NCBI GenBank assembly: GCA_028280785.1
Contig: JANQLF010000114.1
Coordinates: 1 to 33,536 of the forward strand
Length of the DNA stretch: 33,536 bases
Direction of reading: 5' to 3'
From: Planctomycetota bacterium
Lineage (GTDB): Bacteria > Planctomycetota > UBA11346
Both the position numbers and the translations under genes were made by a program. The notes under the pieces were generated by a model. It worked only from the letters and a program-made list of their open reading frames with translations. It ran no database searches and was not told the DNA's origin. Of this stretch, positions 22,616-33,536 are shown one piece after another; position 1 is the first letter of the stretch, and every line of letters starts with the position of its first letter.

Positions 22616-23365
22616 ATGATTGTGGTCACTAAACTTACTGATGAGACTGTTTTTTCTGCCGAGGCCCAGCGCCGCCTGCGCGAGCCACGTTGCCGCGGAA
22701 TGTTCAAGCCAATTGATGCCGCACGCCGTCAATTAGGCCTGCTCAGTGGTGGTGACGACCAAGGTCAGTGCCGTCTCTACTGCCTGGTCAACCTCGAAAC
22801 CAAGGTCATCGAAGACGCTCGATTCATGGCATTTGGCGATCTCGCTTCACATCCTATCGCTGATGCCCTCACCGAATTGATGCGCGAACAGGAACTTGAT
22901 AAAGCTCTGTCCATTAAAGCTGAAGAAATCGACAAAGTCCTTCGCGACGATACTGATTCGAGCTTTGGCATGGATAACCTCGATGCCTACGCATTTATTA
23001 ACAGTCTTCAAAACGAACTGCGCGAAAATTTTCCAAGTGTTAAATTACTACCCAAACCAATCGAAAAAGAAGTTTACAAACGTAAACGTGAAGCTGATTG
23101 GAGTGGATTTGATCAGCGTTGGTTCCCGCTAAGTTTACTCAAGAAAATTAGCACTATTCAAAAATGCATTAAATCACTGATTAACGACAAACTAAAACGC
23201 CAAGATATCGTATGGAGTATTGAAGGACTCCATGATGATTTCCAAATTGTTGTTAAAATCGATGGTGTTAACGCAGAAGAAATACCAACCCTGCTCCGCT
23301 TTATGGATGAAGCCGTGCACGAGGGCATTCACCCTGACCTCAGCGTCGAGGAGCATCAGGCATGA
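22616..23365 (+). CDS. NifU/IscU-like protein that appears to have lost its cluster-binding cysteines
   Basis: A 249-residue protein leading the SUF operon. Residues ~20-110 resemble the IscU/NifU scaffold: EPRCRGMF, then [11 protein letters not shown] and [17 protein letters not shown], matching the IscU pattern IEDARFKTYG and LVTEWVKGKSLDEA. The scaffold's cluster ligands appear replaced: Gln49 where the first Cys lies, Asp75 where the Cys of YGCG lies, and no third Cys. Its four cysteines are elsewhere (26, 52, 56, 184). The last ~50 residues also resemble the NifU C-terminal domain, with its CxxC replaced by Asn and Glu. It is probably an accessory SUF protein, not a classical scaffold. 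Its stop overlaps sufB as ATGA. The start lacks a strong ribosome binding site. Confidence 0.72.
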
Positions 23366-24822
23366 GTGAAAATGAATTAGAAGAATTAAACAAGGAAGCC
23401 TACAAATACGGTTTCACCACTGCGGTCGACGCCATAACCCTTGGTCGCGGATTAAACGAAGACGTCGTACGCGCTATTGCAGCGGCACGTAAAGAACCGC
23501 AGTTTATGCTCGATTTCCGTTTGCGTGCCTATGAAATATTTAAAGGCATGAAGGAACCAGAGTGGGCTGCGGTTCACTATCCACCAATCGATTATGAAAA
23601 TGTGCAGTATTATTCAGCGCCACAGAAAAAAGAAGAATCAGATGCTGCTCCCAGCTATGATTCGCTTGATGACGTCGATCCTGAAATTCTTCGCACCTTT
23701 GAAAAACTCGGTATTCCCCTTGATGAGCAAAAACGCTTAAGTGGCGTTGCCGTCGATGCGGTTTTTGATTCGGTTTCAATTACCACCACCCATCAGCAAA
23801 AATTATCTGACGCTGGTGTGATCTTCTGCTCCTTCGGCGAAGCACTACACGAGTTTCCGCATTTAATCGAGCGCTATCTCGGCAGCGTTGTACCTGCGAG
23901 TGATAATTATTTCGCTGCATTGAACGGAGCTGTTTTCTCTGACGGTAGCTTTGTTTACATTCCACCGTTCACTCGTTGCCCCCTCGAATTGTCTACTTAC
24001 TTCCGCATTAATAACGTAGAAGCTGGTCAATTTGAGCGCACATTGATTATTGCCGACAAAGGCAGCTATGTTTCCTACCTTGAGGGCTGCACAGCACCGC
24101 AAAGCAGCAAGCATCAATTACATGCCGCAGTCGTTGAACTGGTAACTTTAGATGACGCTGAAATAAAATACTCAACGGTACAAAACTGGTACGCCGGTGA
24201 TAAAGAAACCGGTGAAGGCGGCGTTTATAACTTTGTAACCAAACGTGGCGCCTGCCGTGGCAAACGCTCAAAGATTTCCTGGACTCAAGTAGAAACAGGC
24301 TCAGCTATTACCTGGAAATATCCAAGCTGCATTTTACTTGGTGATGACAGTGTCGGTGAATTTTATTCAGTGGCTTTGACCAACGGACATATGCAGGCCG
24401 ATACCGGCACCAAAATGATTCACATCGGCAAGAACACCAAGTCTACTATTATCTCAAAGGGCATCAGCGCTGATCACAGTTCGAATGTGTATCGCGGTCA
24501 TGTGAATATTAACCCCAAGGCCCATAACTCACAAAACTATACCCAATGTGATTCGATGTTGGTTGGTAAGCAATGCACTGCGCACACTTACCCCTACATC
24601 GACATTCGCACCAATGACAGCACCGTCGAACACGAAGCCAGTACCACCAAGCTCAGTGAAGACCAATTATTTTATTTTAAATCACGCGGTGTTTCTGAAG
24701 AAGAAGCCATTCAAGCAGTAGTCACCGGTTTCTGCCGTGACGTGCTCGACGTATTACCACTCGAATTTGCAGCAGAAGCACAAAAACTTTTAACATTAAA
24801 ATTAGAAAACTCGGTTGGATAA
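23362..24822 (+). CDS. sufB: Fe-S cluster assembly protein SufB
   Basis: A 486-residue SufB, the scaffold subunit of the SufBCD complex that builds Fe-S clusters in the cytosol. The family hallmark [19 protein letters not shown] is in the central beta-helix. The C-terminal core has [10 protein letters not shown] with Cys405, at the same position as the Cys405 implicated in cluster formation in E. coli SufB, and VEHEAS near residues 422-427, the conserved EHEA patch. [16 protein letters not shown] completes the C-terminal interface shared with SufD. The ATG overlaps the NifU-like gene by 4 bases. The next gene, sufC, is 2 bases away. This is one transcription unit. Confidence 0.97.
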
Positions 24823-24824
24823 CA

Positions 24825-25565
24825 ATGCTTACACTCGATAATGTTCACGCTCAGGTTGAAGATCACCCCATCCTCAAAGGGTTAAGTCTCACGGTTAACG
24901 CCGGCGAAGTTCACGCCATCATGGGTCCTAATGGCGCCGGCAAATCTACATTTGCTAAAGTTGTTGCCGGACATGATGATTATGAAGTTAACGATGGTGA
25001 TATTCAATTTAATGGCGAATCAATTAACGAACTCGACATCGAAGACCGAGCCAACAAAGGCATCTTTATTGGTTTTCAATATCCCACCGAAGTTCCTGGC
25101 GTAAATAATGCCGAGTTTTTGCGCCTCGCCTATAATGCTAAACGTCAAGCCAATAACCAAGAAGCATTAAACGACGAAGAGTTTCGTCCCATATTATTGG
25201 AAAAGCTCAAAGCCGCGCAAATGGATCATATCTTTCTCGAGCGCGATTTAAATTCAGGCTTTTCTGGTGGTCAAAAGAAGCGTAACGAAATTTTACAAAT
25301 GTTGGTTCTCGAACCACAGCTGGCCATTTTAGACGAAACCGATTCTGGTCTCGATATCGACGCACTACGCATTGTTGCTGATGGCATTAATCAATACCGT
25401 TCAGAAAACCACGCCATTGTTTTAATCACCCATTACCAACGACTACTTGATTTGGTTAAACCTGATTTTGTCCATGTCTTAGCAGATGGTAAAATTGCCA
25501 AAAGTGGCGGACCTGAATTAGCACTCGAACTTGAAGCCAATGGCTACGATTGGTTAACCAAATAA
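24825..25565 (+). CDS. sufC: Fe-S cluster assembly ATPase SufC
   Basis: A 246-residue ABC-type ATPase that powers the SufBCD complex. Walker A GPNGAGKST is at 34-42, the Q-loop glutamine is Q85 in GFQYP, the signature FSGGQKKR is at 146-153, and Walker B LAILDETDSGLD is at 167-178. The glutamate that normally ends Walker B is present in DET. The H-loop histidine appears in LITHYQRLL. It starts 2 bases after the sufB stop and its stop overlaps the sufD ATG by one base (TAATG). Length and motifs are canonical. Confidence 0.97.
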   Translation: MLTLDNVHAQVEDHPILKGLSLTVNAGEVHAIMGPNGAGKSTFAKVVAGHDDYEVNDGDIQFNGESINELDIEDRANKGIFIGFQYPTEVPGVNNAEFLRLAYNAKRQANNQEALNDEEFRPILLEKLKAAQMDHIFLERDLNSGFSGGQKKRNEILQMLVLEPQLAILDETDSGLDIDALRIVADGINQYRSENHAIVLITHYQRLLDLVKPDFVHVLADGKIAKSGGPELALELEANGYDWLTK

Positions 25566-26710
25566 TGACTGCATTAGCTGAAATCAACCAGCAGGCCGAT
25601 CAAGCACTAACAACAGCACCAACACCGACAGTAAAGCTGGAAGACTGGCGCTATGTTAATTTTAAAACAATCAGCGAATCCATTAATCCTGGCTCAGCTG
25701 GCAATAATGATCAAGTTCCTGAATTCTTAAACCATTTACCAAGTTTAGTGATTGATAACGGTCACGTCACTAAAAATGCACTTGAAGCACACTGCAGTCT
25801 CAGCGATACAGCATCGAATACAAATTGGTATGCTGATCTCCAAGCAAGCAATACGCCTGATGCCCTACGCTGCATTAATAGCGCTTCACAACATATCAAC
25901 ATTGCACTCAAAGGCATAGGCCAACAAGCAAGTGTAATCGTTTTACGCAGCAGCGGCGGTCAGTATGGATTAAATATTAACATCCATGCTCCGAAGGGCA
26001 GTGTCGGTGATTTAATTATTGTTCACGACCATGCTGAAAATTCTTCTGCGCATATCGCCATTCACGTTCAGGCTGAACAAGATGCGGTCGTTCGCATTGA
26101 TGAAATTGAATTACAAATCAATGACGCACGTTTATTCCTGTTTAAATACGCGGACCTCTTTAAAGCAGCACAAGTCAGCTGGCAACATATGGGCTTCGCC
26201 CTCGGCATTAATCGGCAGTATTGGCAAGCACAAATTCATGATGTTGAAGGCAATTGCCAACTCGGCAGCGCTTGTCTCACCAATGGTACACATCAAGCGC
26301 ATCATATTATTAACATGCGCCACCTCAGCCCCAAGACCTACAGCACCCAATTATTTAAATCGATCGCCTTAGACGAAACACGTTACAGTTTTAACGGTCT
26401 TACTCACATGGCCGATGATGCTGATGAAAGTTCAGCAAATCAACAAAATGCCAATTTGCAATTATCAACAAAAGCACGCGTTCATTCACGGCCGCAATTA
26501 GACATTCACACTGATGATGTCATCGCTACACACGGTTCCGCAACCGGTCAAGCTGACCCTGCAGAATTATATTATTTACGCACGCGTGGATTAAATAAAC
26601 AAGAGGCTGAAGAGTTGATTATCAGCGGGTTTCTACAAGAGGTCACCGGGAATTTTCACTCACCATTGTGCAAGCAATGGGCAGCAAATAAAATATCTGA
26701 AATTTTATAG
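25565..26710 (+). CDS. sufD: Fe-S cluster assembly protein SufD
   Basis: A 381-residue SufD, paralogue of SufB and part of the SufBC2D complex. The N-terminus EDWRYVNFKTI is the usual SufD pattern. The C-terminal half has the beta-helix ending in VIATHGSATGQADPAELYYLRTRGLNKQEAEELIISGF, which includes the conserved His of the SufB-SufD interface. The ATG at 25565 overlaps the sufC stop as TAATG. An earlier in-frame TTG at 25550 is inside sufC and is not used. It is the last gene of the operon; its stop is one base from the convergent AAA ATPase stop. Confidence 0.96.
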   Translation: MTALAEINQQADQALTTAPTPTVKLEDWRYVNFKTISESINPGSAGNNDQVPEFLNHLPSLVIDNGHVTKNALEAHCSLSDTASNTNWYADLQASNTPDALRCINSASQHINIALKGIGQQASVIVLRSSGGQYGLNINIHAPKGSVGDLIIVHDHAENSSAHIAIHVQAEQDAVVRIDEIELQINDARLFLFKYADLFKAAQVSWQHMGFALGINRQYWQAQIHDVEGNCQLGSACLTNGTHQAHHIINMRHLSPKTYSTQLFKSIALDETRYSFNGLTHMADDADESSANQQNANLQLSTKARVHSRPQLDIHTDDVIATHGSATGQADPAELYYLRTRGLNKQEAEELIISGFLQEVTGNFHSPLCKQWAANKISEIL

Positions 26711-26711
26711 A

Positions 26712-28475
26712 CTAGTTCTCGCCCAACTGCTCGAGTTGTTTTAATTCCTGCTGCCATTCGGCGCGCAGATCTTCGTTCACATCATCAAACGGTAATAATG
26801 AACGACGTGTGCAATTGACCAGTGCTTGCAAGGTTTGGTAACGACGAGTCTGCGCAATAGCCGCAGGTAATAAATCCTGTACTAGTGATCGAATTGCTTC
26901 TGCACTCGCATCTGGCAAAGCCGCGATCTCTCGACGCAATGAGGCATATCCAGCCGCGCTCCAATCAGCAGTCATGTCGCGCATATCACTTACTAATTGT
27001 TGATCATCTTTTAAATCTCTGAGAACCCATTTTATAAATGCATCACGATCTTCAGTTTCCGGATCCAACACAGGTATAATTAAATCGCCAACACGTCCTG
27101 GACGACGCAAGTCTGGCGACAAGCGATGAATGCGCGCCGTCATTAATAACCAAAAAGTTTTGCCTAATAATTGCGGGTCAGACATCATTCCTTGAATTTT
27201 ACCGGTTAAGCGTTTTTCGGTATCATGGGTACTGCTATCTAAGCCACCAAATTGTGTATCCGCTTCATCAACAATAATAACGACACGACCGAGACTCACC
27301 AAAATTCGTCGTAAACGTTCCAATATGACATCAGTCTGACCGAACCATTGTGAGCGGATATTACCGAGTTCCAAAACTGGCAATCCCAATTCACCCGCGA
27401 GTGCCTCAAATATAAAAGTTTTACCAGCACCGATGGGACCGGAAACAGCACAACCCGACAAAGCGCCACCACCACCGCCTTGAATGCGAGGCATCAATGT
27501 ATCGCGCAAAAAAGATAAAAGGCGTTTATTACCAATAACATCACTTAATTGTTGTTGCGGGCGTTTGAATCGCACAACATCCTCACCAAGCTGCCCTTGA
27601 ATATGTTGCTCAACGCGCTTGACAACTGCATCTGCATTTGGTCCTGCACCTTCATGTTCAGCGGCGACACAGAGTTGTCGTAAAGACTGTAAATTTAAAC
27701 CAGCTGTAGCAGCAGCAATGTGATCAAGCTCTTCATCATCTGGCAACCATGATTTATTATCACGAACTTGAAATTTTAAATATGCTAATCGATCTGACGC
27801 GTTTGGCTCTTCAATCGGCAGTGGCATTACCTGTGGCAATCGACTTAAACGACTATTCAGTGCATGGCCAGATTCGCTCAGCATCACCACCACATCTTTA
27901 CCGGCGGCAAATGCAGGATCGGCAAACCAATCGTGGCATATATGTAAGCGCTGGCGATCAGCATCGCTCATACCGTTAACCGGTGCTTCAGGGACAATTA
28001 AATCCGCTGCTTCAATTATCAAAACTAAATCAGCGTTGAGTAATTCGCGTGAACACACACATAACTGACGCATTAATTCCAAGGCGACTGTTGGACGACC
28101 AACAGCTGCAAGCAATTGATCATCAAAGCTGTTAGCCTGGTTGGCAATCTGATCACGTGCAACACCACTCGATGACAGTCTCGCCAATGCTAAATCACCG
28201 GAATCAAGTCCATGTCGCCACTTGAGCCAAGCATCTTTTAATAGTTGTCTGTCACTCGAACGGTGAATACGCAACGGACCATTAATTTCGTAGGTTACGA
28301 CAATACGATTTGGCACCTGCCAGTGAGCAACTAATACATCTGGTAAGGTTTGGTAGACACCTTCTGCATTGACAAATAAGTCATGAACGTTGCCCGCCAT
28401 AACCAAGACACGGGCTTCACCACTATTACAGAGGCGACCTGCCTCAGATAAAAACGGGGCTACTGCATTGCTCAT
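26712..28475 (-). CDS. Tandem AAA ATPase with Vps4/katanin-like pore loop, partner of PspA
   Basis: A 587-residue cytoplasmic ATPase. The C-terminal module is active: Walker A GPIGAGKT at 346-353, Walker B VVIIVDEAD at 398-406, sensor-1 region FWLLMTAR, and arginine fingers in DLRRPGRVG (455-463). The pore-loop stretch SQWFGQTD at 375-382 matches the SKWxGESE pattern of classical AAA proteins such as Vps4 and katanin. The N-terminal half (about 1-300) looks like a second AAA module without a Walker A: residues 23-33 read VLVMAGNVHDL, and a Walker B-like LVLIIEAADLI sits at 150-160. It is probably an inactive, structural ring element. The gene lies 13 bases after pspA on the same strand, which suggests it acts on PspA polymers (inference). 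No ribosome binding site precedes the ATG. Confidence 0.85.
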   Translation of the reverse strand: MSNAVAPFLSEAGRLCNSGEARVLVMAGNVHDLFVNAEGVYQTLPDVLVAHWQVPNRIVVTYEINGPLRIHRSSDRQLLKDAWLKWRHGLDSGDLALARLSSSGVARDQIANQANSFDDQLLAAVGRPTVALELMRQLCVCSRELLNADLVLIIEAADLIVPEAPVNGMSDADRQRLHICHDWFADPAFAAGKDVVVMLSESGHALNSRLSRLPQVMPLPIEEPNASDRLAYLKFQVRDNKSWLPDDEELDHIAAATAGLNLQSLRQLCVAAEHEGAGPNADAVVKRVEQHIQGQLGEDVVRFKRPQQQLSDVIGNKRLLSFLRDTLMPRIQGGGGGALSGCAVSGPIGAGKTFIFEALAGELGLPVLELGNIRSQWFGQTDVILERLRRILVSLGRVVIIVDEADTQFGGLDSSTHDTEKRLTGKIQGMMSDPQLLGKTFWLLMTARIHRLSPDLRRPGRVGDLIIPVLDPETEDRDAFIKWVLRDLKDDQQLVSDMRDMTADWSAAGYASLRREIAALPDASAEAIRSLVQDLLPAAIAQTRRYQTLQALVNCTRRSLLPFDDVNEDLRAEWQQELKQLEQLGEN

Positions 28476-28488
28476 AAGAATTCAGTGC

Positions 28489-29334
28489 TTATTCAGGAAG
28501 CTTGCCGTCACGTTGTGCTGGCGCAGCGTCGCCCTGCTCAGCTTCTGGCGCGGGCGCATCTGCTTGAGCAGCCAAACCAATCAACTTATCAAACTCGCTT
28601 TGGCCTGCCGTCTTCTTGGCGTACTCTAAGAACTCAGCTTCACGAGCTTTGGCATCAGTACCTGAGAGCTCTTTTGATACGCGCGCTTCAGCACGCAGCT
28701 CTTGGCGAACCTGACGCAGTTCAGCTAATTTGTCATCAGTGCTGCCATCGGTGGTCAGTCCAGCCAAGGCGTCGTTGAGTTCTTTTTCTTGCTTAGCAGA
28801 GATAACTTCTGCCACTGCCTCAGAACGCTCGCCTTTAATCTTCTCGATTTCGGCAACCAACTCTTTGAGTTGAATGCGATGTTCATTGATCCGCTTACCA
28901 TAGCCCTCCACATCATTTTCGAGCTCTTGCAAACGTGCTTCACGTTCCTTTAAGGTTGCAGAAAAATCATTATAGGCTGCCAAACATTGCTGGTAATCGT
29001 CATTGGAATGAATGGAGTCCATATCGGCACCACTTTGCTGCAGGGCAGCAACCGTGCTTTGGGCCTTGGCAAGGGCACCTGCTCGGAGATCTTCTAAGCG
29101 CTTGGCTTCTTCAACCAAATCTTTGGCTTTCGTGGTCTTTTGCTCTTGCTGAGCTATCAAACCGGCAACGGCTTCTTTATACTGTTGAATGCGCTCAGTT
29201 TTTTCACGCAGGACTTCATCGTATTTGGATCGGATCGCATGTGGATCCGTATCCATACCGCGCCGCGAGGCATCTACACGCCCTGACATAACATGACCGA
29301 GTGAACGAAACCAGCGAGCAATAGCACGAAACAT
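28489..29334 (-). CDS. pspA: PspA/IM30-family membrane-remodelling protein
   Basis: A 281-residue, highly helical protein of the PspA/Vipp1 family, which belongs to the ESCRT-III superfamily and polymerises on the inner membrane. The N-terminal amphipathic helix (MFRAIARWFRSLGHVMSG) is the membrane-binding element. Residues ~27-210 form long charged coiled-coil helices in heptads. The C-terminal tail (about 245-281) is Ala/Pro/Glu-rich, disordered and longer than in E. coli PspA (222 residues). The ATG at 29334 has AAGGAG 5 bases upstream. It precedes the AAA ATPase in a probable two-gene unit and is divergent from the YqiJ-like/flotillin genes. No pspF, pspB or pspC is visible. Confidence 0.85.
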   Translation of the reverse strand: MFRAIARWFRSLGHVMSGRVDASRRGMDTDPHAIRSKYDEVLREKTERIQQYKEAVAGLIAQQEQKTTKAKDLVEEAKRLEDLRAGALAKAQSTVAALQQSGADMDSIHSNDDYQQCLAAYNDFSATLKEREARLQELENDVEGYGKRINEHRIQLKELVAEIEKIKGERSEAVAEVISAKQEKELNDALAGLTTDGSTDDKLAELRQVRQELRAEARVSKELSGTDAKAREAEFLEYAKKTAGQSEFDKLIGLAAQADAPAPEAEQGDAAPAQRDGKLPE

Positions 29335-29474
29335 GAAAACTCCTTCTATAAGGGTAGGCCCAGCCTAAAGCCCATCGGGCTCCGGCTCAAGCTCTATGTA
29401 TGACCATACTAACAACGAACCCGAGCACCACTGCGGAACACTACCAGTAAGTGACGCAGAAATGCACCCTGCAA

Positions 29475-29503
29475 TTGATAACATCACATAGACATTCAAT
29501 TAT
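29475..29503 (+). promoter_or_regulatory. Probable sigma-70 promoter for the YqiJ-like/flotillin operon
   Basis: TTGATA at 29475-29480 (5 of 6 with TTGACA) and AATTAT at 29498-29503 (4 of 6 with TATAAT) are spaced exactly 17 bases. Initiation would fall near 29510, about 15 bases before the ATG at 29525, with the GAGGG ribosome binding site in between. It is a reasonable but unproven match. Two short hairpins, at 29355-29367 and 29369-29381, lie in the 5' UTR of pspA on the other strand. Confidence 0.45.
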
Positions 29504-29524
29504 TACAACTATTCTAGAGGGCCC

Positions 29525-30322
29525 ATGGATACCCTAATCGAATTACTACAAAGCTTTCCTACTGCCATTTGGTCAGTCCCCCTAGGCGTATCTATTTTCT
29601 TTTGGATCCTCACCATCCTCGGTGCCTTCGATATCGAGATGTTCGATATCGACACCGATGCAAGCCCCGATCTCGAACACGACATTGATATTGGACATGA
29701 TCATGGTGTACACCATGGCTTCTTCCATGGCCTGAGCGAATCATTGGCCATTGGTACCGTACCTACAACGATTGTTTTAAGCTCCATCTCAAGCTTCGGC
29801 TGGATATCTAGCGTCATTAGTGAATTAACGTTCGCTGGTTTTGCGCGTGAATTAATAAGCCCCATTCTTTATGGCATCCTGGCCTTTGTCGCCACTTTTC
29901 TGTTTGCCGTATGGATTACCACTTTGGTCGTCAGACCACTCAAACCAATTTTTCACACCCACACCGAACATGGGCATCATTATTTAGTCGGCCAACTTGC
30001 TAAGATTACTTCAAGTAAAGTTACCGATAATTTTGGCCTCGCTGCTATTGATGGCAAAGATTTGATTCTCAATGTTATCTGCAAAGATCAAAACGCATTA
30101 ACCGAAGGCGATGAAGTCTCGATCGTCTCTTATAACGAAGAAAAAAATCATTATATTGTAGCACCATTACACGAACAAAAAAGTATTGCATCAAACGAAG
30201 CGCATACTGCAGCAAGTAACGCGCATTTGCCCGGCAGCCAATCGGAAAACCGCACACCTGCTGAATTATCTCACCATGATACTCCCAATGAAACACCCAA
30301 ACACACATCAGAACTGGAATAA
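29525..30322 (+). CDS. YqiJ-like inner-membrane protein with an OB-fold domain
   Basis: A 265-residue membrane protein. TM1 is at ~13-33, and an acidic, His/Asp-rich loop (HDIDIGHDHGVHHGFFHG) occupies ~50-70, suggesting possible metal binding. TM2 (~78-100) and TM3 (~110-138) follow. A soluble domain at ~150-217 has the beta-rich layout of the OB-fold in YqiJ (VGQLAKITSSKV...GLAAIDGKDLILNVICKD...EGDEVSIVSY). In E. coli, yqiJ precedes the flotillin yqiK, and the same order is seen here. The 40-residue tail is disordered and Thr/His-rich. GAGGG precedes the ATG. The protein probably acts with the flotillin at the membrane. Confidence 0.82.
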   Translation: MDTLIELLQSFPTAIWSVPLGVSIFFWILTILGAFDIEMFDIDTDASPDLEHDIDIGHDHGVHHGFFHGLSESLAIGTVPTTIVLSSISSFGWISSVISELTFAGFARELISPILYGILAFVATFLFAVWITTLVVRPLKPIFHTHTEHGHHYLVGQLAKITSSKVTDNFGLAAIDGKDLILNVICKDQNALTEGDEVSIVSYNEEKNHYIVAPLHEQKSIASNEAHTAASNAHLPGSQSENRTPAELSHHDTPNETPKHTSELE

Positions 30323-30350
30323 ATTCGAGTAGTCGAAAGGACCACACAAT

Positions 30351-32375
30351 ATGGATATCTTCATTATCGCCGTCATTATCGGCGTCTTAATTGGACTCAT
30401 GCTGGCAATCATTGCCTTTGTCAAAGCCTTTTACCGCAAGGTTGACCAAGGTCGCGCATTAATTGTCAACACCATGAAAGCAGTCCCTAAAGTTACCTTT
30501 ACAGGTTGCACGGTTATACCGGTTATCCATCGCGCCGAAGTCATGGATATATCGGTAAAAACTATTGATGTTGACCGACGCGCTAAAGACGGGCTTATCT
30601 GTCAGGATAATATACGTGCTGACATCACCGTGGCCTTCTTCGTCCGTGTTAACAAAACCGCCGAGGACGTTCTCACTGTCGCCTCTGCCGTGGGTGTAGA
30701 ACGTGCATCGGATATTCGTACGCTCGAAGCTTTATTCCAAGCGAAATTCTCTGAAGCCTTAAAAACAGTTGGTAAACAGATGGACTTCATTTCGCTGTAT
30801 AATGAACGACAAAACTTTAAAGAAGCGATTATCGAAGTTATCGGCAAAGACTTAAACGGTTACATGCTCGAAGACGTTGCGATTGACTACTTAGAGCAAA
30901 CACCGCTCGAAAGTTTAGATCCAAATAATATTTTGGACGCACAGGGTCGTAAGAAAATTATCGACTTAACTTCTGAAGAGCAAGTAAAAGCCAACCTTAT
31001 TCAACGTGACGCACAAAAAACTATTAAAAAGCAAGACGTTGAAGCACGCGAAGCAATTCTCGCACTCGAGCGACAAGAAGAAGAAGCTGTTGCAGTTCAA
31101 AACCGTGATGTCTCTATTGTCCAAGCACGCGAAAAAGCTGAAATTGAAAAAGTACAGTTTGAAGAACACCGTCGTTCCGAAGAAGCTAAAATTCAAGCCG
31201 ATCAAGAACTTGGCATTGCCCGCGAAAATGCTCAACGCGAAATTGAAGTCGCCGAGCAAAATCGCTTGCGTGCGATTGCTGTAGAAGAAGAACGAGTTAC
31301 CAAAGAGCGTGATCTTGAAGTCATCAACCGCCAACGCGCTACTGAATTAAGCGAAATCGAAAAAGAAAAGGCACTCGAGGTAGAGAAAAAAGCTATCGCC
31401 GATGTTATTCGCGAACGTGTTGCCGTTGAAAAGAATGTGGCACAAGAAGAAGAACGCATCAAAGACTTACGCGCAACCATGGAAGCAGAACGTCTCAAAG
31501 TTGTTGCTTTAACCAAGGCTGAAGAAGAAGCCGAGCAAGCGAAAATTAAAGAAGTCAAAGCTGCTGAAGCTGCTGAAACCGCCGCTGGTCATAATGCACG
31601 CGAGAAATTGGTATTAGCAGAAGCCGAACAAGCTGCTGCAGAGAAAGAAGCTCTCGCTGATATTCGTCGCGCTGAAGGTGTACAAGCACGTGAAGCTGCT
31701 GCTGGACTTGCTAAAGCCAAGGTCAAAGAAGCCGATGCTATCGCCAACGAAAAACAAGGCTTGGCAGAAGTGCACGTACAAGAAGCAGAAGTCAAAGTTA
31801 TCGCCGAACGCGGCCAAGCAGAAGCAACCGCTATCGAAGCGAAGATGGGTGCCGAAGCATCCGGTATCGCCGAGAAGGCCGAGTCGATGAAGAAACTCAA
31901 CGACAACACTCGCGAACACGAAGAATTCCGTCTCGAACTCGAGAAAGAACTCGAAATCGCCAAAGCAGAAATTGCGGCGAGAATCGATATCGCCGAACGC
32001 AATGCAGACATTCTTGGTCAATCGCTTGCTAACGCTCGCTTCGACATTGTCGGCGGTGACGGTGAGTTCTTCGACCGCTTTGTTAAGGCTGTTTCGGTTG
32101 GTAAGAGCATCGACGGTGCTCTGGATCGCTCGACGGCACTCCAAACCGCAACGCGCGAATATTTGGAAGAAGGCCGCAGTCTACCAGACGATCTCAGAGA
32201 AGTGTTGTCCAACAGCAAACTCGGCACTGACGATCTGAAAAACTTAGCTGCAACCAGTCTCCTGGCTAAATTAGCTAAGGGTAAAGATCCCAAAGAAATA
32301 GCCGGCTTAGTTGAAAAAGCCAAAGAACTTGGCTTTGGTGACGAAATCGCTGGTTGGTTAAGTAATAATAAATAA
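30351..32375 (+). CDS. Flotillin-family (SPFH) membrane protein
   Basis: A 674-residue flotillin of the YqiK type. One membrane segment at residues ~2-25 (FIIAVIIGVLIGLMLAIIAFV) is followed by a positive stop and the SPFH domain at ~30-215 (ALIVNTMKAVPKVTFTG... ISVKTIDVDRRAKDGL). A very long Ala/Glu/Lys-rich coiled coil spans ~225-560, and an oligomerisation tail follows, giving a length in the upper range for flotillins. These proteins form membrane scaffolds that organise lipid domains. A purine-rich AAAGGA box precedes the ATG. It follows the YqiJ-like gene by 28 bases and is upstream of the DNA-repair-ATPase-like gene. Confidence 0.92.
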   Translation: MDIFIIAVIIGVLIGLMLAIIAFVKAFYRKVDQGRALIVNTMKAVPKVTFTGCTVIPVIHRAEVMDISVKTIDVDRRAKDGLICQDNIRADITVAFFVRVNKTAEDVLTVASAVGVERASDIRTLEALFQAKFSEALKTVGKQMDFISLYNERQNFKEAIIEVIGKDLNGYMLEDVAIDYLEQTPLESLDPNNILDAQGRKKIIDLTSEEQVKANLIQRDAQKTIKKQDVEAREAILALERQEEEAVAVQNRDVSIVQAREKAEIEKVQFEEHRRSEEAKIQADQELGIARENAQREIEVAEQNRLRAIAVEEERVTKERDLEVINRQRATELSEIEKEKALEVEKKAIADVIRERVAVEKNVAQEEERIKDLRATMEAERLKVVALTKAEEEAEQAKIKEVKAAEAAETAAGHNAREKLVLAEAEQAAAEKEALADIRRAEGVQAREAAAGLAKAKVKEADAIANEKQGLAEVHVQEAEVKVIAERGQAEATAIEAKMGAEASGIAEKAESMKKLNDNTREHEEFRLELEKELEIAKAEIAARIDIAERNADILGQSLANARFDIVGGDGEFFDRFVKAVSVGKSIDGALDRSTALQTATREYLEEGRSLPDDLREVLSNSKLGTDDLKNLAATSLLAKLAKGKDPKEIAGLVEKAKELGFGDEIAGWLSNNK

Positions 32376-32386
32376 GGCTTAGGTAT

Positions 32387-32419
32387 AGTGGGTCTTTAGT
32401 CCAAAACTAAGGACCCACT
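32387..32419 (+). terminator. Strong hairpin between flotillin and DNA repair ATPase-like gene
   Basis: AGTGGGTC at 32387-32394 pairs with GACCCACT at 32412-32419, extended inward by TTAG/CTAA beyond a T-G wobble. The stem totals about 13 bp with a 7-base loop. The tail is pyrimidine-rich (CCCTCTTCCCTT) but lacks a T-run, so it looks like a partial terminator or an attenuator that lowers expression of the next gene, not a full stop. Confidence 0.5.
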
Positions 32420-32468
32420 CCCTCTTCCCTTAATGACTTTAACGAAATTGAAAAACTGAACTATACAT

Positions 32469-33536
32469 ATGTCCGAACCTGAAATCGAAAACGAAGTTCA
32501 AAGCCCAGATATAGAAACATCAACCTATGATGTGATCCGCAAGCGCTTAATGGATCAGGGCAAAGAATTACAACAAGCCGTTGATAAATTAAATGGTAAA
32601 CGGCAAGAGATTTTTGGCGGCGTTAGCACAGAATTAATTGCCACTGAGCGTGCCCGCACTGAACACAATTGTATTCCACGCGACATAGTCGCCATCAGCG
32701 AAGATAAATTATTACTAGGTTATCAAGTCTTCATGGGACTTAAATCTGAAACCAGTGTTTCAGATATTTTTGCCAAATTGCATTATGACGGCGAACAACT
32801 CGAAAACGCTGACTTTGATTTACTCAACGACGCGAATTTCCAAAAAGATTTCAAGGAACTGCTCCAGTACTATAAAGATGCGCGCCTCCTCCAGCTGCGT
32901 CGTACTGATACCCATATTTTAATGGTTTTCCAAATTGGTGAACGCGCCAATGACATCAAAGTTTTGCGCTGGGGTATTTCCAATAAAGGCATCGGCTATA
33001 TAGATAATCGCGGTGAACGTGACCACACCTTCCCCCCGGTCCATGACTTTGAATGGGTACGCACCACGCGTGAGGATCACCTGCTCGGTACCCATCCGCA
33101 TATTAATGTAGCTGATACGATTTTTGTCGAATGTATTGGTGGCGATCTCACTATTAAAGTAGAAGATAATACCGAAGAAGGCACCGGCATTTACGCAGAA
33201 GAAGTAGAAGAGCCAAATCAAGGTCTTGATGATGCTGAAATTCTTTATGCAGACCTTGAATCAATGATTGTCCTCAAAGTTCGTCCCTATAAAGAAAATG
33301 TTTATCGCTATATTGTTTACAACAAACAATTACGTAGTGCCACCCGCATCGATTCTATTGGTTACAGCTGCCAACAATTACCAGAAGGGCACGGTCTTAT
33401 TTTTCCCAATGGTTACTACCTCAGCGACGGCAGTCACAAGGTCTTCCCAATTGAAGTCGATGACATGGAATTCATTCGTCAGATTCGTGCCCCTAACGGC
33501 GAAGACAGCGCATTTGTTTACCATCATCGCAATAAC
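32469..33536 (+). CDS. N-terminal part of a large DNA repair ATPase-like protein (3' end outside window)
   Basis: The frame is open from the ATG at 32469 to the window edge (356 codons, no stop). The start MSEPEIENEVQSPDIE is acidic, followed by a coiled-coil-like stretch (DQGKELQQAVDKLNGKRQEIF). Then come beta-rich repeats typical of the N-terminal half of the proteins annotated 'DNA repair ATPase', such as CIPRDIVAISEDKLLLGYQVFMGLK, WGISNKGIGYIDNRGERDHTFPP and FEWVRTTREDHLLG. In related genomes this gene follows a YqiJ-like protein and a flotillin, and its AAA domain is at the far C-terminus, outside this window. The name is inherited, and the actual role is not established. No clear ribosome binding site precedes the ATG. 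Confidence 0.78.
   Translation, partial: MSEPEIENEVQSPDIETSTYDVIRKRLMDQGKELQQAVDKLNGKRQEIFGGVSTELIATERARTEHNCIPRDIVAISEDKLLLGYQVFMGLKSETSVSDIFAKLHYDGEQLENADFDLLNDANFQKDFKELLQYYKDARLLQLRRTDTHILMVFQIGERANDIKVLRWGISNKGIGYIDNRGERDHTFPPVHDFEWVRTTREDHLLGTHPHINVADTIFVECIGGDLTIKVEDNTEEGTGIYAEEVEEPNQGLDDAEILYADLESMIVLKVRPYKENVYRYIVYNKQLRSATRIDSIGYSCQQLPEGHGLIFPNGYYLSDGSHKVFPIEVDDMEFIRQIRAPNGEDSAFVYHHRNN

Follow-up and report, generated by a model that had tools for sequence, protein, structure and literature searches.

The DNA analyzed here, a 33,536-nucleotide stretch of a Planctomycetota metagenome-assembled genome (MAG; assembly GCA_028280785.1, contig JANQLF010000114.1) that we call the window, ends in a cluster of five genes (26712-33536). 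Two of these are our main subject: a gene for a divergent PspA/Vipp1-like protein and, following it after a gap of 13 bases on the same (-) strand, a gene for a tandem-AAA ATPase. The genes for a YqiJ-like protein, a flotillin, and a DUF3686 protein run divergently from this pair on the (+) strand. An earlier note made from the sequence alone had placed these five genes and the 13-base gap, and all were confirmed as open reading frames. The nearest named relative of the source genome is isolate GH22, whose AAA protein is 65% identical. The features of the cluster are listed below; pLDDT is the predicted local distance difference test score.

26712-28475, (-) strand: tandem-AAA ATPase, 587 amino acids (PF00004, 2e-13; co-occurrence with PspA; model pLDDT, 90.5)
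27081-27458, (-) strand: active AAA domain, about residues 340-465 (PF00004, motifs)
27330-27353, (-) strand: pore loop SQWFGQTD, residues 375-382, in the active AAA domain
27417-27440, (-) strand: Walker A motif GPIGAGKT, in the active AAA domain
27588-28457, (-) strand: degenerate first AAA-like domain, residues 7-296 (full-length model alignment; column counts)
28489-29334, (-) strand: divergent PspA/Vipp1-like protein of the ESCRT-III superfamily, 281 amino acids (PF04012 matches of homologues; Foldseek)
28492-28560, (-) strand: disordered linker and terminal (L/I)PE of the PspA-like protein, residues 259-281, with the motif (residues 279-281) at 28492-28500
29248-29331, (-) strand: predicted membrane-anchor helix alpha0 of the PspA-like protein, amphipathic, residues 2-29 (helix in model; hydrophobic moment)
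29335-29524: divergent intergenic region of 190 bases between the PspA-like and YqiJ-like genes
29525-30322, (+) strand: YqiJ/YuaF-like membrane protein (weak match to PF21001, E of 0.027, below the cut-off)
30351-32375, (+) strand: flotillin with a transmembrane start, an SPFH/Band_7 domain (PF01145, residues 30-178, 4.6e-12 once the coiled coil was excluded), and a long coiled coil
32469-33536, (+) strand: N-terminal part of a DUF3686 coiled-coil/beta-propeller protein (PF12458, 4.8e-138), cut by the contig end

With few exceptions, the PspA-like and AAA proteins were co-inherited in the genomes of several phyla. Scanning the GTDB genomes yielded 80 loci, spanning Planctomycetota, Verrucomicrobiota, Hydrogenedentota, Desulfobacterota, Acidobacteriota, and others. 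When 294 Planctomycetota genomes were surveyed for strong matches (above 360 bits for PspA; above 700 bits over the full or nearly full length for the AAA protein), the two proteins were found in the identical 9 genomes (hypergeometric probability of 2.5e-17, ignoring relatedness), and in one further genome, G249, PspA was absent and the AAA match was a fragment containing stops. Among 30 genomes whose AAA locus was without PspA, 26 encoded a PspA family member elsewhere. The PspA and AAA trees had their main groups in common (r = 0.70 over 40 pairs). The two genes were directly adjacent in the window and in L020, L033, L091, L032, L046, L068, G128, and G142, and the pair was maintained under reversed gene order and with intervening genes. 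The earlier note had made its proposal depend on conservation of the gene pair across related genomes, and this is what the survey found. The usual setting was an operon encoding an NMT1-OmpA protein, a VWA protein, a second NMT1-OmpA protein, a transmembrane protein, PspA, a binding protein, a permease, an ABC ATPase, and the AAA protein; in the Pirellulales version, the AAA gene came first. The NMT1-OmpA marker of this operon was absent from eight genomes that carry the pair (those of the window, G008, G006, G016, G128, L032, L046, and L068) in searches that detected the positive controls, the sole trace being a single weak local match in G008.

The second line of evidence came from the C-terminal end of the PspA-like protein. 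Residues 260-279 had pLDDT values below 50 in the model, and the linker varied among 35 aligned homologues, whereas P280 and E281 were unchanged in all of them; column entropy was 0 for the P and the E versus 2.2 to 3.2 bits in most linker columns. The sequence (L/I/V)PE, with no more than one residue after it, formed the C-terminal end in 61 of 61 readable PspA tails, which were collected as three sets (36 of 36, 22 of 22, and then 3 more from G128, G142, and G137). E. coli PspA ends in KMKQDNQ, without this motif, and a distant PspA relative in G009, a genome whose sole related AAA protein is a divergent paralogue, ends in TREL. Since the motif was also retained in genomes without the NMT1-OmpA operon marker, the AAA protein is its only constant partner. 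Vps4 seizes ESCRT-III proteins at their flexible C-terminal tail, and by this analogy, together with the constancy of the partner, contact between the PspA tail and the AAA protein would be the most economical reading. Ahead of the disordered tail, at residues 247-254 (28573-28596), lies a further conserved block, EFDxLIGL, which could also serve for docking.

The AAA protein had been called Vps4-type in the earlier note, which cited its pore loop. The loop SQWFGQTD is indeed present, and it was identical in all 37 aligned homologues; as a Vps4 signature it was rejected, because a similar pattern occurs in Cdc48 and Afg2 alignments and is generic to classic AAA proteins. Membership of the Vps4 family itself did not stand. 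Among NCBIfam models, the window protein matched that of CDC48 at 2.4e-12 versus 9.9e-5 for CdvC, the top matches of a profile search were VCP-like (1.7e-26), and the nearest sequences in the PDB were Cdc48 and Afg2, with CdvC/Vps4 far behind. The model aligned over its full length with the tandem AAA proteins Afg2, Cdc48/p97, and Rix7, identifying the N-terminal half as a degenerate first AAA domain. This half, for which Pfam gave no match, has no Walker A motif and carries GNxxDLF in the P-loop position. The second AAA domain has an intact Walker A motif, the Walker B motif DEAD, and RRPGR arginine fingers, and its active-site motifs were invariant across the family. The model shows no MIT-like domain and differs in this, and in its two AAA domains, from the MIT domain and single AAA cassette of Vps4. 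The protein is thus a Cdc48/Afg2-like tandem AAA protein and not a Vps4 by membership. A paralogous second family of tandem-AAA proteins (319 to 420 bits) occurs with no PspA alongside, with members at L126 1573-3276 (in the source genome itself, contig C174), L131 7330-9132, and L132 5476-7155.

The tentative identification of the other protein as PspA draws on its predicted fold and on its homologues. PF04012 was the family most often matched among 35 homologues (26 of 35, all weakly, with a best E of 4e-6). The AlphaFold model (mean pLDDT, 79.9) consists of helices at residues 2-29, 31-100, 112-193, and 199-258, followed by a disordered end, and it contains the alpha0 amphipathic helix, the long alpha1-alpha2/3 hairpin, and the alpha4-5 region of PspA/Vipp1. 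The hydrophobic moment peaks at residues 1-18, where its value of 0.44 is the highest in the protein. When the model was compared with the PDB by Foldseek, the top five matches were Vipp1 or PspA (best E of 3.5e-4 over 250 columns); a single-sequence PDB search gave no useful match. With reservation, we assign the protein remotely, by its modeled fold, as a probable divergent member of the PspA/Vipp1 clade of the ESCRT-III superfamily.

Within the second arm of the cluster, the SPFH/Band_7 domain of the flotillin was confirmed, the DUF3686 match is strong, and the name YqiJ comes mostly from the position of the gene ahead of the flotillin gene because the family match is weak. A single-sequence PDB search with the flotillin gave no useful match. 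Positions 1-329 of the DUF3686 model are in the window and positions 336-448 are on contig C132, whose first open reading frame holds a C-terminal AAA domain in the same 1,410-amino-acid frame as the missing positions, so that, judged from the sequences, the gene very probably continues there. DUF3686 was found in 39 of the 294 Planctomycetota genomes and the PspA-AAA pair in 9, and 5 had both (hypergeometric probability of 0.003, ignoring relatedness). The flotillin module adjoined the pair in all five, with the divergent arrangement in the family of the window (four genomes) and a head-to-tail YqiJ-flotillin-DUF3686-PspA-AAA arrangement in G128, which belongs to another family. The link is real but narrow, spanning two Planctomycetota lineages.

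We lean slightly toward the view that the AAA protein is a dedicated remodeler of the PspA polymer that engages the PspA tail. The PspA-like protein would polymerize on the inner membrane via alpha0, like PspA and Vipp1, and the AAA protein would form a hexameric ring with a structural, non-hydrolyzing first tier and an active second tier. The ring would grasp the flexible PspA C-terminus by its (L/I)PE motif and thread the subunits past the W-F pore loops, and the polymer would be dismantled or turned over in an ATP-dependent manner. The AAA protein would work as Vps4 does on ESCRT-III, on a Cdc48/Afg2-like frame, and in the lineage of the window the YqiJ-flotillin-DUF3686 module could provide a membrane platform or repair site for the pair. 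Of the earlier proposal that a polymer-plus-AAA pair works with a lipid-domain scaffold, the pair has gained from the co-occurrence and the invariant tail, and the scaffold tie is restricted to a small group of Planctomycetota.

Several observations weigh against this reading. PspA was undetectable in 4 of the 30 genomes whose AAA locus was without it, these being MAGs that are perhaps incomplete. PF04012 had no match anywhere in the source genome, the window protein included, hhalign of the PspA family profile against E. coli PspA found nothing, and the Foldseek TM-scores were low (0.30 to 0.46), with Smc coiled coils close behind. In addition, ATP hydrolysis by the AAA protein may be slow or atypical, because the sensor-1 Asn is replaced by Ala in 37 of 37 aligned family members. 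That PspA and the AAA protein are chance neighbors with no joint function is nevertheless extremely improbable: their joint occurrence in one set of 9 genomes among 294 contradicts it, as does conservation of the pair over several phyla. The partnership could take another form, with PspA acting not as the substrate but as an adaptor or inhibitor that tethers the AAA ring to membranes for the unfolding or extraction of other, possibly membrane, proteins. E. coli PspA binds and restrains the AAA+ ring protein PspF, Cdc48/Afg2-like machines usually operate with adaptors, and the co-occurrence and tail data fit this role as well. PspA has been cited as an AAA+ adaptor (PMC11746142). However, PspF is a sigma-54 activator AAA+ protein of a different clade, the role of the flexible ESCRT-III tail as the grip site of Vps4 favors a substrate, and genomes with only the pair yielded no other constant candidate substrate; we regard the adaptor role as decidedly unlikely.

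It is also unlikely that (L/I)PE has a different reader (for example, a protease, a housekeeping factor, or a further PspA subunit) and that the AAA protein acts on some other part of PspA. Terminal motifs can serve as degrons or assembly contacts, and EFDxLIGL could be the AAA site instead, but the motif is kept whatever the neighbors, with the AAA protein as its only constant partner, and it is missing both from E. coli PspA and from the G009 relative, whose genome has only the divergent AAA paralogue. We are less doubtful of a reading in which the pair is real and the YqiJ-flotillin-DUF3686 module independent, the two cassettes merely sharing a locus in the lineage of the window, although we still consider it the wrong side of even. 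The module was without the pair in 34 of 39 Planctomycetota genomes, and the pair was without the module in G026, G112, G137, and G142; conversely, the two were adjacent in every genome holding both, in two arrangements, and other bacteria have a similar module associated with another PspA (PMC11237479).

None of pspB, pspC, and pspF was found at the locus, as the earlier note had said; this absence is confined to the locus in the case of PspC, because a PspC-domain protein is present elsewhere in the genome, far from the PspA locus (C138 15987-16160, within a large 765-codon open frame). The 190-base divergent intergenic region contained neither a sigma-54 site nor a sigma-70-like site above chance, and Psp-type sigma-54 control of the pair was rejected for want of the former. 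The cluster is flanked by sufBCD (22616-26710), the AAA gene ending one base from the sufD stop, and on the other side by a sufS-like gene on a probably adjoining contig (C132, L145 5511-6000), so that it seems to interrupt a suf operon. Two interpretations were rejected: functional involvement with the convergent sufBCD genes, because locus L020 has other neighbors, and a known defense system, because the PADLOC matches, of coiled-coil and AAA type, were only weak. Thermoanaerobaculia have a small membrane gene one or two genes upstream of the pair (L032 4619-5329, which matches XpaC [PF10112, 7.3e-14], and L046 7132-7845); in the larger operons, its position is occupied by a protein with transmembrane and coiled-coil regions.

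The concept of the pair is already known as a prediction, because Ravi et al. (2024, mSystems; PMC11237479) reported that bacterial PspA sometimes occurs with a two-AAA protein whose N-terminal copy is inactive, described such pairs also in operons with an ABC ATPase, a permease, and PBPB-OmpA proteins, and proposed ATP-dependent membrane remodeling for them. Gene linkage, two AAA domains, and a degenerate first domain are shared with the pair studied here, whose broader homologues lie in the NMT1-OmpA/VWA/transmembrane/permease/ABC operon, and by description the window AAA family is probably their two-AAA family. The window pair differs in lacking that operon, the marker being absent from the genome, and in being joined to a flotillin module. 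The same paper linked an operon of band-7/flotillin, YqiJ, and coiled-coil/beta-propeller-AAA genes to a CesT/Tir-PspA system (YjfJ type); the three-gene module is the same, but the window lacks both a CesT/Tir gene and a YjfJ-type PspA, its PspA being of the type paired with the AAA protein. One-to-one inheritance, the terminal (L/I)PE, and the sensor-1 change are not described in the portions of the paper available to us. Relative to these portions, what is new is that the two genes are strictly co-inherited and separable from both operons, that PspA carries the C-terminal motif, that the AAA architecture is Cdc48-like, and that the modules are merged in one locus. With ESCRT-III/Vps4 of eukaryotes and archaea (CdvB/CdvC), the pair shares a putative polymer protein of the ESCRT-III superfamily, a flexible tail with a conserved terminal motif, and an AAA ATPase partner whose pore loop is aromatic; unlike them, it has a polymer protein of the PspA rather than the Snf7 clade and, closest in sequence and fold to Cdc48/Afg2, an ATPase with a degenerate AAA domain in place of MIT. 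Cdc48/p97 and Afg2/Drg1 share the tandem layout and are the best sequence and fold matches, whereas the window protein has a degenerate first AAA domain, no Cdc48 N-domain, a sensor-1 Ala, and PspA as its apparent partner. The classic pspFABC phage-shock operon shares the PspA-type protein but has pspB, pspC, and pspF, sigma-54 control, and a different AAA protein.

Chaperones or PspF were suggested as Vps4 analogues for bacterial ESCRT-III disassembly in a 2024 structural study (PMC11746142), and, according to a 2026 review, how Vipp1/PspA disassembly is regulated is unclear (PMC13051332). Because the pair is co-inherited and its PspA ends in an invariant tag, it may be a bacterial counterpart of ESCRT-III/Vps4 built on a Cdc48-like motor. 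We tentatively suggest, at somewhat less than even confidence, that bacteria evolved their own ESCRT-III motor independently of Vps4, a Cdc48/Afg2-like AAA protein that reads (L/I)PE and that, in some lineages, would serve flotillin-coupled membrane repair. As the pair is strictly co-inherited and its terminal motif is just three residues long, the question of how bacterial ESCRT-III is dismantled becomes testable with two purified proteins and one small deletion.

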